From positions 1 through 64,000 of the forward strand of contig JAFIEO010000017.1 in the NCBI GenBank assembly GCA_020832445.1: a stretch of 64,000 nucleotides of DNA, written 5' to 3'. The DNA is from Paracoccaceae bacterium (GTDB lineage Bacteria; Pseudomonadota; Alphaproteobacteria; Rhodobacterales; Rhodobacteraceae). The notes beneath the pieces were generated by a model. That model was not told the DNA's origin. It worked only from the letters and a program-made list of their open reading frames with translations, and made no database searches. Position numbers and translations under genes: made by a program. Positions 4,854 through 52,725 of this stretch are shown here, piece after piece. Each line of letters starts with the position of its first letter. The first letter of the stretch is position 1.

Positions 4854-4888
4854 ACTTGCGGGCGTGTCAGGCAGGGCTGGTTGAGTCT

Positions 4889-5117
4889 GGCCTGAAGGGG
4901 ACGTTGCTGCCATGGACAAAGCCCGCGCCAGCGGTGGGCCGGGGTCTGCCGATCCGGCATTTGAGAGGCGCAGTTTATGCCAGCTGCATACCCCTTGCTT
5001 CAATGGCTTGGCGTGTCGCTGGCCAAATCGGCAGGCCGCGGGACGGCCCACCGATGGCGCGGCGGGCTGCGCCCTTTGCTCCGCGCCTTGGGGCATTCGC
5101 GATGTCTGCAAAAGGCC
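4889..5117 (+). repeat. Interspersed nested-palindrome repeat, copy A
   Basis: Shares an indel-free core with copies B-E; GCGCCAGCGGTGGGCC...GGCCCACCGATGGCGC arms; left end GGCCTGAAGGGGACGTT, right end GCAAAAGGCC. Confidence 0.92.
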
Positions 5118-5143
5118 ATGATTGGCCCCCATACAGGGACAAA

Positions 5144-19826: not shown

Positions 19827-19844
19827 TCAGCCGGTATTCGGAAC

Positions 19845-19875
19845 AAAAGCCCCCGCATTTGCGGGGGCTTTTTTT
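19845..19875 (+). terminator. glnA Rho-independent terminator
   Basis: AAAAGCCCCCGC-ATTT-GCGGGGGCTTTTTTT. Confidence 0.95.
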
Positions 19876-19904
19876 GGTGCTGGAACTGATTTGAATTGCG
19901 GTAT

Positions 19905-20135
19905 TTGTCTTTCGACGGTCATTCGGGCATGAATAAAGCCCGCGCCATCGGTGGGCCGGGGTCTGCCGATCCGACATTTGAGATGTGCAGTTTATGCAGG
20001 CTGCATACTTCTGTGCGCAAGGGCTTGGCATACCATCAGCCAAATCGGCAGGCCGCGGGACGGCCAGACCTATGGCGCGGCGGGCTGCGCCCTTGATTCC
20101 GCGCATTTGGGCTTTCCCGATGTCTTCAAAAGGCC
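19905..20135 (+). repeat. Interspersed nested-palindrome repeat, copy B
   Basis: Core aligns to A, C, D, E without gaps; left end degenerate (TGTCTTTCGACGGTCATTCG, resembles E), right end CAAAAGGCC. Confidence 0.88.
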
Positions 20136-20165
20136 ATTCTCAACCAGCCTGACGGTCAACCAGCT

Positions 20166-31254: not shown

Positions 31255-31295
31255 GATCGTGCAACACGGCGAATAATGCTGCTTGGGGTGGGGTT

Positions 31296-31523
31296 GGCCT
31301 GAAGCAGTCATTGGGAATGCCCAAGGCGCGGAGCAAAGGCCGAAGGCCGCCGCGCCATCGGTGGGCCGTCCCGCGGCCTGCCGATTATTCTGATGGTGTC
31401 TCAAGCCTTTGATCTCAGTAGTATGCCGCCTGCATAAAGTGAACTTCACTGGCGTCGGATCGGCAGACCCCGGCCTACCGATGGCGCGGGCTTAATCCAA
31501 GCGGACAACGACAGCTTCAGGCC
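31296..31523 (-). repeat. Interspersed nested-palindrome repeat, copy C
   Basis: Reverse-orientation copy; terminal arms GGCCTGAAGC / GCTTCAGGCC perfectly complementary. Confidence 0.92.
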
Positions 31524-31547
31524 ATTGGTCCACCAGCTTTGTGGCAC

Positions 31548-42235: not shown

Positions 42236-42256
42236 ACCATCCGCTGGGGCGGTGCT

Positions 42257-42484
42257 GGCCTTTTGCAGACATCGGAAAAGCCCCAAGGCGCGGAGCAAAG
42301 GGCGCAGCCCGCCGCGCCATCGGCGGGCCGTCCCGCGGCCTGCCGATTTGGCCAGCGAAACACCAAGCCTTTGAACGCAGGAGTATGCCGCCTGCATAAA
42401 GTGAACTTCACCAATGCCGGATCGGCAGACCCCGGCCCACCGCTGGCGCGGGCTTTGTCCAAGTGTGAAGGGCAGCAAAAGGCC
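42257..42484 (-). repeat. Interspersed nested-palindrome repeat, copy D
   Basis: Terminal arms GGCCTTTTGC / GCAAAAGGCC perfectly complementary; core as in A-E. Confidence 0.93.
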
Positions 42485-42540
42485 AAAACCACCCGCGACA
42501 GGAACGTTTCAAGCCGAAGCAGCCGACCCCTGCGCGCCGT

Positions 42541-49732: not shown

Positions 49733-49775
49733 GCGATGATCCTTTCGGATTGAACAGGCAAGGCCGGTCGGGGTT

Positions 49776-50001
49776 GGCCTTTTGCGGTCATTCGCGCTTG
49801 GATAGCCGCGCCATCGGTGGGCCGGGGTCTGACGATCCGGCGTTAGTGAAGTTCACTTTATGCAGGCGGCATACCCCTGACTTCAAGGGATTGAATCACC
49901 ATCAGCCAAATCGGCAGGCCGCGGGACGGCCAGACCTATGGCGTGGGCCACCTGCTGCCTTTGCTCCGCGCCTTGGGCGTCCCCAATGACAACAAAAGGC
50001 C
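49776..50001 (+). repeat. Interspersed nested-palindrome repeat, copy E
   Basis: Terminal arms GGCCTTTTGCGGTCATT / AATGACAACAAAAGGCC (15/17 complementary); core as in A-D. Confidence 0.92.
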
Positions 50002-50165
50002 AGCACATTCCCCAAACGGACCATTCCCCCACGACCTGATCGCGCAACTGGTCGGCGTGCCGGATGACTATTGGAAATATTATTGCGCCCTGCTGATGAA
50101 CGTGATTTGTTGTGCATGCGAATGCATGGAATACTGCGCCTCGCAATCTGGCAGATGGGGCGGAA

Positions 50166-51543: not shown

Positions 51544-52725
51544 ATGGCCGACCGTATGAATCGCCGCCAGCTTCTGACCCGCGCATTGGCGCTGGGGTGC
51601 ACGGCGGCGGCAAGCCCGATGCTGACGCCTGTATCCTTTGCAGCCCTTCCGGGCGAGCGCCGTCTGGTTGTCATTGTGCTGCGCGGGGCCATGGATGGGC
51701 TGGATGTGTTCCGCCCCTTGGGCGATCCGCATCTGGCTGCATTGCGACCCCATCTGGCGCAGGAAAACACGCCCTTGCCGCTGGACAATTTCTTTGCGCT
51801 GCATCCGGCCCTGTCGGGGTTGATGCCATTGTGGCACGCAGGCGAGATGGGGTTTGTGCCTGCAACATCAACCTTGTATCGCGACCAGCGCAGCCATTTC
51901 GACGGGCAGGACCATCTGGAAGCGGGCACGGCTGGCACATTGCCGCCCGCCTTGCAGCGCGATGGCTGGCTGAACCGGCTGGTTGCGCAACTGCCCGGTG
52001 CGCAGGCGCGCACAGCCTTCGCGGTGGGGCGCGAACGCATGCTGATCCTTGAAGGGCAGGCTGCGATAACGCAATGGTCGCCGGGCACTGATCTGGACCT
52101 AAGCCCGCAAAACCGTTTGCTGTTGTCCTATCTGTTCGACAATGACCCGCTATTTGCACAAGCGGGCCAGATCGCGCTGGAAATGACAACCCCCGGCACG
52201 GATGATGATGAAGACGATATGCCCGCAGGGGGCGATGCGGCAGGGCTTGGCCGCTATATCGCGCAGCAATTGCTGGCAGAATCGCGCATTGCAAGTTTTT
52301 CACTGACCGGCTGGGACACCCATCGCGACCAGCACCGCGCGCTGTTGCCCGCATTGGGGCGGTTGCAGGATGCCATTCTGGCCCTGCGTGACGGGCTGGG
52401 GGATGCGTGGGGCGAAACCACTGTAATGGCCATGACCGAATTCGGTCGCACGGCGCGCGAAAACGGCGCGCGCGGCACTGACCATGGCACGGGCGGCGCG
52501 CTGTTGCTGGCAGGCGGCGCATTGCGCGGGCAGCGTGCCATCGGCGGCTGGCCGGGCCTTGCGGATCAAGACCTTTACGCAGGGCGCGACCTGATGCCCC
52601 TGTCCGATATTCGCGCCTATCCCGCATGGGCGATGCGCGATTTGTTCGGCCTGCCGGTATCGGCCATTGAACGGCATATATTCGCGGGGCTGGATATGGG
52701 CGACAGTCCGCGCCTGTTTCTGTAA
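51544..52725 (+). CDS. DUF1501-family protein with Tat-like signal
   Basis: MADRMNRRQLLTRALALGCTAAASPMLTPVSFA; VVIVLRGAMDGLDV; TEFGRTARENGARGTDHGTGGALLLAGG. Confidence 0.93.
   Translation: MADRMNRRQLLTRALALGCTAAASPMLTPVSFAALPGERRLVVIVLRGAMDGLDVFRPLGDPHLAALRPHLAQENTPLPLDNFFALHPALSGLMPLWHAGEMGFVPATSTLYRDQRSHFDGQDHLEAGTAGTLPPALQRDGWLNRLVAQLPGAQARTAFAVGRERMLILEGQAAITQWSPGTDLDLSPQNRLLLSYLFDNDPLFAQAGQIALEMTTPGTDDDEDDMPAGGDAAGLGRYIAQQLLAESRIASFSLTGWDTHRDQHRALLPALGRLQDAILALRDGLGDAWGETTVMAMTEFGRTARENGARGTDHGTGGALLLAGGALRGQRAIGGWPGLADQDLYAGRDLMPLSDIRAYPAWAMRDLFGLPVSAIERHIFAGLDMGDSPRLFL

Follow-up and report, generated by a model that had tools for sequence, protein, structure and literature searches.

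Dispersed intergenic palindromes such as the BIME and REP sequences of Escherichia coli and other bacteria are built as mosaics of modules, lie 3' of genes and are not known from divergent promoters. Their functions are summarised in PMC5082802, which also describes Br-REP1 of Bradyrhizobium as palindromes located where the 3'-UTRs of two convergent genes overlap. RIME sequences are Rhizobium-specific intergenic mosaic elements (Osteras et al. 1995, as cited in PMC2245857), while the alphaproteobacterial CIR elements of Caulobacter and Brucella are strictly intergenic and foldable (PMC2229807). The MITE-like ERIC, RUP and Correia elements are short, non-coding and intergenic and carry inverted repeats and target-site duplications (PMC2229807). 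The preference of intergenic repeats for the 3' ends of genes has usually been described loosely. For the element described here this preference is large and length-controlled, and the same genome supplies the controls, namely an unrelated second repeat and a set of motifs found only in tandem gaps.

The element was found in a 64-kb stretch of DNA from a member of the Rhodobacteraceae (hereafter the window) and is non-coding, palindromic and mosaic. Tests of its mosaic, extragenic, palindromic character and of its position 3' of genes showed that it shares all of these with BIME and REP, but its unit exceeds 200 nt (229 profile positions) where their palindromes measure 20-40 nt, and it has one core with three covarying strands. 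With RIME, compared by description only, it has in common that it is an alphaproteobacterial, intergenic, palindromic mosaic; unlike the RIME of Rhizobium, it gave no match outside its own family in a class-wide sample. RIME1 is about half as long. CIR elements measure about 110 bp and have a conserved GANTC in a loop, whereas GANTC occurs in only 15 of 50 copies of the element in its own genome, mostly as GGAATCAAGG between strand 1 of the core and a small hairpin; membership of the CIR family was rejected on this ground. Br-REP1 differs in being a 20-nt central palindrome of unrelated sequence, and the element is set apart from ERIC, RUP and Correia by having no evident target-site duplication. 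No Rfam family matched at its gathering score, either in the window or at the element in another 20 loci, and the best sub-threshold hit, to ar45 (18.7 bits, against a gathering score of 40), was treated as chance. No description of it in Rhodobacterales was found in a search that covered mainly the open literature, where the element appears to be undescribed.

Five full copies, A to E, are present in the window, with scores of 146-185 bits under covariance model R1. Copies were also located with an nhmmer profile that was built from 33 copies and comprises 229 positions, the arms being extra. Copy A (4888-5118, minus strand; found by profile and covariance model) lies in the 290-nt convergent gap 4854-5143 between a CoA_binding_2 and an EamA gene, and copy B (19910-20136, minus strand) in the 339-nt convergent gap 19827-20165 between the genes of glutamine synthetase (glnA) and EPSP synthase (aroA), where it is adjoined by a hairpin resembling an intrinsic terminator. 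Copy C (31295-31524, plus strand) occupies the 293-nt convergent gap 31255-31547 between the genes of a proteasome-like (Anbu) and an ArsR-type HTH protein; its body runs from TGGCCTGAAGC to GCTTCAGGCCA, scores 185 bits with model R1 and is also matched by the nhmmer profile. Copy D (42256-42484, plus strand), with both arms TGGCCTTTTGC...GCAAAAGGCCA intact, is found in the 305-nt convergent gap 42236-42540 between a NUDIX and a phosphoglucomutase gene. Copy E (49775-50002, minus strand) sits in the tandem gap 49733-50111 between accA and a downstream DUF1800 gene, 42 nt past the accA stop codon. The first-pass annotation, which had placed four of the five full copies in convergent gaps, was thus right on this point and in its naming of the flanking genes. 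Of the two tandem exceptions that it listed, E is genuine, whereas F was not found, the best remaining places in the window reaching at most 14.9 bits. Its statement that every convergent protein-gene gap longer than 200 bp, one with a tRNA apart, is occupied holds as a count but is partly circular, the element itself adding about 230-330 bp to a gap. The short convergent gaps (53, 106 and 65 nt) and the gap that contains a tRNA are indeed free of the element.

The body of the element starts with TGGCCTTTTGC or TGGCCTGAAGC and ends with GCAAAAGGCCA or GCTTCAGGCCA. It measures about 230 bp, or up to about 330 bp when variable outer arms are included, as seen from an occupied gap of 410 nt and its counterpart of 78 nt; in some copies these outer arms are complementary and of two types. 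The following positions refer to the plus strand in copy C. Core strand 1 (GGCGCGG, 31325-31331) can pair with core strand 2 (CCGCGCC, 31350-31356), as supported by covariation and by agreement among three strands, and core strand 3 (GGCGCGG, 31483-31489), a direct repeat of strand 1, is the alternative partner of strand 2. Between strands 1 and 2 lies the small hairpin GGCC-GAA-GGCC (31338-31348), 97% of whose alignment cells are paired; C-G to G-C double changes occur in 12 sequences, with GGGC..GCCC, GCGC..GCGC and others as compensated forms. ATCGGTGGGCC (31357-31367), which forms the inner portion of the long stem, pairs with 31472-31482 and is followed by the internal loop GTCCCGCGGC (31368-31377), opposite ACCCC, the alignment columns of which are near-invariant; this loop has diverged in Roseobacteraceae copies. 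The left side of the inner stem, CTGCCGAT (31378-31385), pairs with ATCGGCAG (31459-31466), and 95% of the cells are paired. The two strands of copy D fold with predicted energies of -136 and -156 kcal/mol (z of -2.3 and -2.8).

The pairings of strands 1 and 2 and of strands 2 and 3 exclude each other because strand 2 is the complement of strand 1 and of strand 3 alike, and the alignments indicate that both of these predicted helices are conserved. The 1:2 helix has 95.6% of its cells paired and five pairs with double changes, and the 2:3 helix 94%; in the count behind the latter figure, 94.3% and 95.4% of the cells were paired in the two helices, with seven double-change pairs. Among 141 copies, 47 have a non-consensus strand 1, and in 13 of these all three strands agree, against a mean of 0.96 and a maximum of 5 in shuffled data; the placement of strands 2 and 3 by best match within each copy somewhat favours agreement over the shuffles in this count, a bias of which the alignment-based covariation counts are free. 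The pattern is repeated by Roseobacteraceae plasmid copies from outside the discovery set, in which GGCAAGG or CGCCCGG is present three times over and TGCGCGG also occurs. The conserved alternative helices offer a testable structural claim. In one alignment (A2), mismatches compatible with wobble pairing in RNA of the minus strand outnumbered those for the plus strand by 31 to 10, a ratio that ignores relatedness among the copies and gives only a hint that one strand may be the functional one.

The orientation of gaps was assessed in ten of the larger contigs, 1.57 Mb or 39% of the 4.08-Mb, 99-contig genome, where genes were called with a purpose-made codon-usage caller (coding fraction 0.87) and copies were located by profile. 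The 45 copies that could be assigned to gaps were distributed as 38 convergent, 7 tandem and 0 divergent; of the 1403 gaps in this DNA, only 188 are convergent. Residual intergenic DNA amounted to 32.0 kb in convergent, 103.7 kb in tandem and 47.2 kb in divergent gaps. To control for length, the element was subtracted from its gap and the residual lengths were divided into five strata (20-60, 60-100, 100-150, 150-250 and 250-500 nt). Occupancy of convergent gaps in these strata was 6/39, 11/39, 7/27, 7/18 and 4/19, that of tandem gaps 0/130, 1/147, 0/108, 4/105 and 0/64, and no divergent gap was occupied in any of them. The Mantel-Haenszel odds ratio for convergent against tandem gaps was 54, with p values of the strata ranging from 1e-7 to 0.0021. 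The enrichment that the first-pass annotation had proposed to score against length-matched gaps, a test set beforehand, thus survives on the 39% of the genome covered. Even at residual lengths of 150 nt or more, 11 of 37 convergent but only 4 of 169 tandem gaps were occupied, a 12-fold difference. About 80% of the convergent gaps in this DNA are without the element. In convergent gaps the median distance from copy to stop codon is 44.5 nt, and every copy in a tandem gap of this genome lies 5-112 nt past the upstream stop codon. The bias of insertion or retention towards 3' flanks that had been suggested from the window is supported by this position of the tandem copies, by the absence of divergent ones and by the behaviour of a second repeat. 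Contig C18 (325 kb) is a copy desert: it has a single copy, although 26 of its convergent gaps measure 30 nt or more, and its GC skew switches sign.

This second repeat of about 103 bp (TAGAGCATATCACGTTCATTCGCATTCACGAGACATGCTCT...AAACCGGTTCCCACTTTTGAGCAACATGCT; for example C89:40204-40314 and C20:120239-120342, outside the window) is unrelated to the element and is present in 29 copies in the 1.57 Mb, 20 of them in convergent, 9 in tandem and 0 in divergent gaps. One of its copies is spanned by a sub-threshold match to the Brucella sRNA family BASRCI27 of Rfam (26.3 bits, where the gathering score is 59.8). Two short motifs, CCATGCAAGCTTCATCTTGCCAAAAATACTCAAAT and ...GAGGATATTTAGACCAGAATGAAGG, occur in 14 and 7 gaps, all of them tandem (for example C2:6159-6193 and C89:4520-4592). 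The idea that convergent bias is a property of every repeat is rejected by these purely tandem motifs; the bias is common to the two long palindromic repeats and not to all repeated sequence.

Comparison with relatives showed slots that stay occupied while their occupants change. In Roseinatronobacter sp. S2, with flanks 91-99% identical, seven of seven compared slots are occupied in both genomes. The elements are near-identical in slots B and C (0.98 and 0.97), but in slots A, D, E and two more they are only 80-86% identical, and two of these are inverted. The two occupants of slot A agree in their outermost arms but differ in the core, which is inverted; the changes in the slot at C65:120418 take the form of patches within the element, and on reading the S2 alignments changes were seen largely within TGGCC..GGCCA. 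In Roseinatronobacter sp. HJB301 (flanks 77-93% identical), 5 convergent sites were shared, 8 were occupied only in the genome of the window and 3 only in HJB301. The shared sites slightly exceed chance (5 against 2.1 expected, p=0.023), but their copies resemble each other no more than random pairs do, and three of the five are inverted. Empty sites in HJB301 are clean and often adjoin a bidirectional intrinsic terminator, and comparison by eye of occupied and empty sites between the two genomes revealed no evident target-site duplication. A single convergent gap of Pseudosulfitobacter pseudonitzschiae, with flanks about 97.6% identical, holds two very different, oppositely oriented copies. 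Vertical descent of the copies at shared sites is rejected for most sites by the HJB301 and S2 comparisons. Conserved slots with swapped and inverted occupants provide a natural system for the study of ectopic conversion between bacterial palindromes. Internally deleted forms of about 70 nt recur in S2 (for example C1:979849-979918 and C3:156132-156201), and the form at the copy C site of HJB301 agrees with a deletion between strands 1 and 3, themselves direct repeats.

Within the set of copies, linkage between variable sites was short-ranged, with an r2 of 0.245 at distances of 1-5 nt and of 0.032 beyond 15 nt (0.033 in permuted data), background being reached within about 16 nt. The types of 5' and 3' arm (TGGCC followed by TTTTGC or TGAAGC, up to the closing GGCCA) were independent of each other (p=0.32). 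Repeated insertion combined with deletion at one slot would account for the inversions, though neither for the patchwork nor for the lost linkage, and from these patterns we infer that copies have probably undergone ectopic gene conversion.

The reading that we hold to be somewhat better than an even bet is that of a RIME- or BIME-like, family-wide, non-autonomous palindromic mosaic element that has accumulated at the 3' ends of genes and whose copies interconvert. New slots would be seeded rarely by copies, and resident copies would overwrite each other by ectopic gene conversion via their shared palindromic arms, in either orientation. The convergent bias would come mainly from tolerance, insertions and conversions being allowed in convergent gaps because these have no promoters or leaders. 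The hairpin core would most likely serve the propagation of the element itself, possibly with a mild benefit to the host at 3' ends. The simplest account of the distribution would be that copies are tolerated and retained at gene 3' ends, an effect sharpened by the size of the element, but pure tolerance explains the 12-fold difference between 4/169 and 11/37 poorly and needs a strong constraint on the whole of a tandem gap. As to mobility, no Y1 transposase (PF01797) was matched in the genome of the window, while the control search was positive for 5 genomes out of 14, E. coli among them, and a RAYT-driven REP was accordingly rejected for this genome; in the 1.57 Mb read, the ends recurred on no other element. 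If the element has no role in transcription, it illustrates the extent to which tolerance by itself can distribute repeats according to the orientation of genes.

An appreciably less probable, though serious, alternative, in line with the role in separating converging transcription suggested from the window, is that the host has selected a bidirectional 3'-end element. Transcribed from either side, it would fold into a large hairpin that terminates or obstructs converging transcripts or shields the 3' ends of both mRNAs, or it would relieve positive supercoiling between converging RNA polymerases. Such a function, whether at RNA 3' ends or in relation to supercoiling, is possible because the structure is conserved and occupancy persists under sequence turnover. 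The extreme restriction to convergent gaps speaks for it, as do a palindromic form that would work in both directions with very stable predicted folds on both strands of copy D, the conservation of alternative helices, and slots that stay occupied though their sequence turns over. Genes adjoining occupied gaps are also more typical in codon use (p=0.00035), which is compatible with function and was counted against the tolerance-based reading. Replacement of intrinsic terminators by the element, on the other hand, was rejected, at least one such terminator being as frequent in convergent gaps with it (10/35) as in those without (29/101), and the length of the converging operons is uncorrelated with occupancy (p=0.25). 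The many empty convergent gaps, the two thirds of sampled genera that are without a match and the same bias in an unrelated repeat argue against host selection as well. Were the element to shape transcription, a single regulator would be common to more than 100 gene pairs per genome. An extension of this idea, in which convergent junctions are conserved slots for an exchangeable cassette, the three-strand core acts as a two-state RNA switch gating converging transcription, and conversion keeps the copies interchangeable so that the set forms one shared recombining device, we consider unlikely. Slightly less credible still is a classical MITE, which would derive from an insertion sequence by deletion, be moved by the transposase of that sequence via terminal inverted repeats and insert preferentially at intrinsic terminators. 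The ends TGGCCTTTTGC/GCAAAAGGCCA resemble such repeats, and several of the clean empty sites of HJB301 adjoin bidirectional terminators, but there is no evident target duplication, the repeat-like alternatives TTTTGC/GAAGC show no correlation between the two ends, 1.57 Mb yielded no insertion sequence with ends of this kind, and a mosaic on a scale of about 15 nt is not expected from bursts of transposition. Correction of quasi-palindromes by template switching during replication is known in principle and could produce covariation of the core in place of selection on a fold. Strands 1, 2 and 3 lie within one palindrome, strands 1 and 3 are direct repeats and the HJB301 deletion at the copy C site is consistent with their recombination; the outer arms, however, are unmatched to each other, which argues that such correction is not general, and this last explanation is very improbable.

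The convergent preference is large, robust to gap length and present in several genera. Full copies were distributed over convergent, tandem and divergent gaps as 13, 5 and 0 in Roseinatronobacter sp. S2 and as 24, 12 and 0 in HJB301, the latter in stretches partly picked around matches. In Roseibaca and uncultured relatives convergent sites again predominated, though one full and one partial copy fell into gaps that were called divergent. With NCBI gene calls, 14 sites on plasmids of Roseinatronobacter, Salipiger, Pseudosulfitobacter and Sulfitobacter comprised 9 convergent, 5 tandem and 0 divergent ones, and eight of the nine convergent gaps measured 241-288 nt. By covariance model, the genome of the window has about 114 places above 88 bits and S2 has 107 full and 7 partial matches, one S2 copy lying on plasmid NZ_CP121115.1 (C3:179883-180049). 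Matches with E<=1e-6 were found in at least 51 of 150 genera of the family when the best 19 candidates per genome were scored, and copy numbers across ten genera ranged from 6 to 114 (E<=1e-9), with 114 and 80 matches in two genomes of the high-copy genera. In a sample of 246 genomes from the class, searched with stricter filters, the genome of the window was matched, while the 243 genomes outside the family and two others of the same family gave no match among the best 11 candidates each. The S2 chromosome has a single partial copy in about 378 kb (approximately 0.88-1.26 Mb). An IS110-family transposase gene is annotated less than about 200 nt from the element copy at 52318-52473 of NZ_CP054603.1 (locus L258); insertion sequences are reported to target palindromic repeats.
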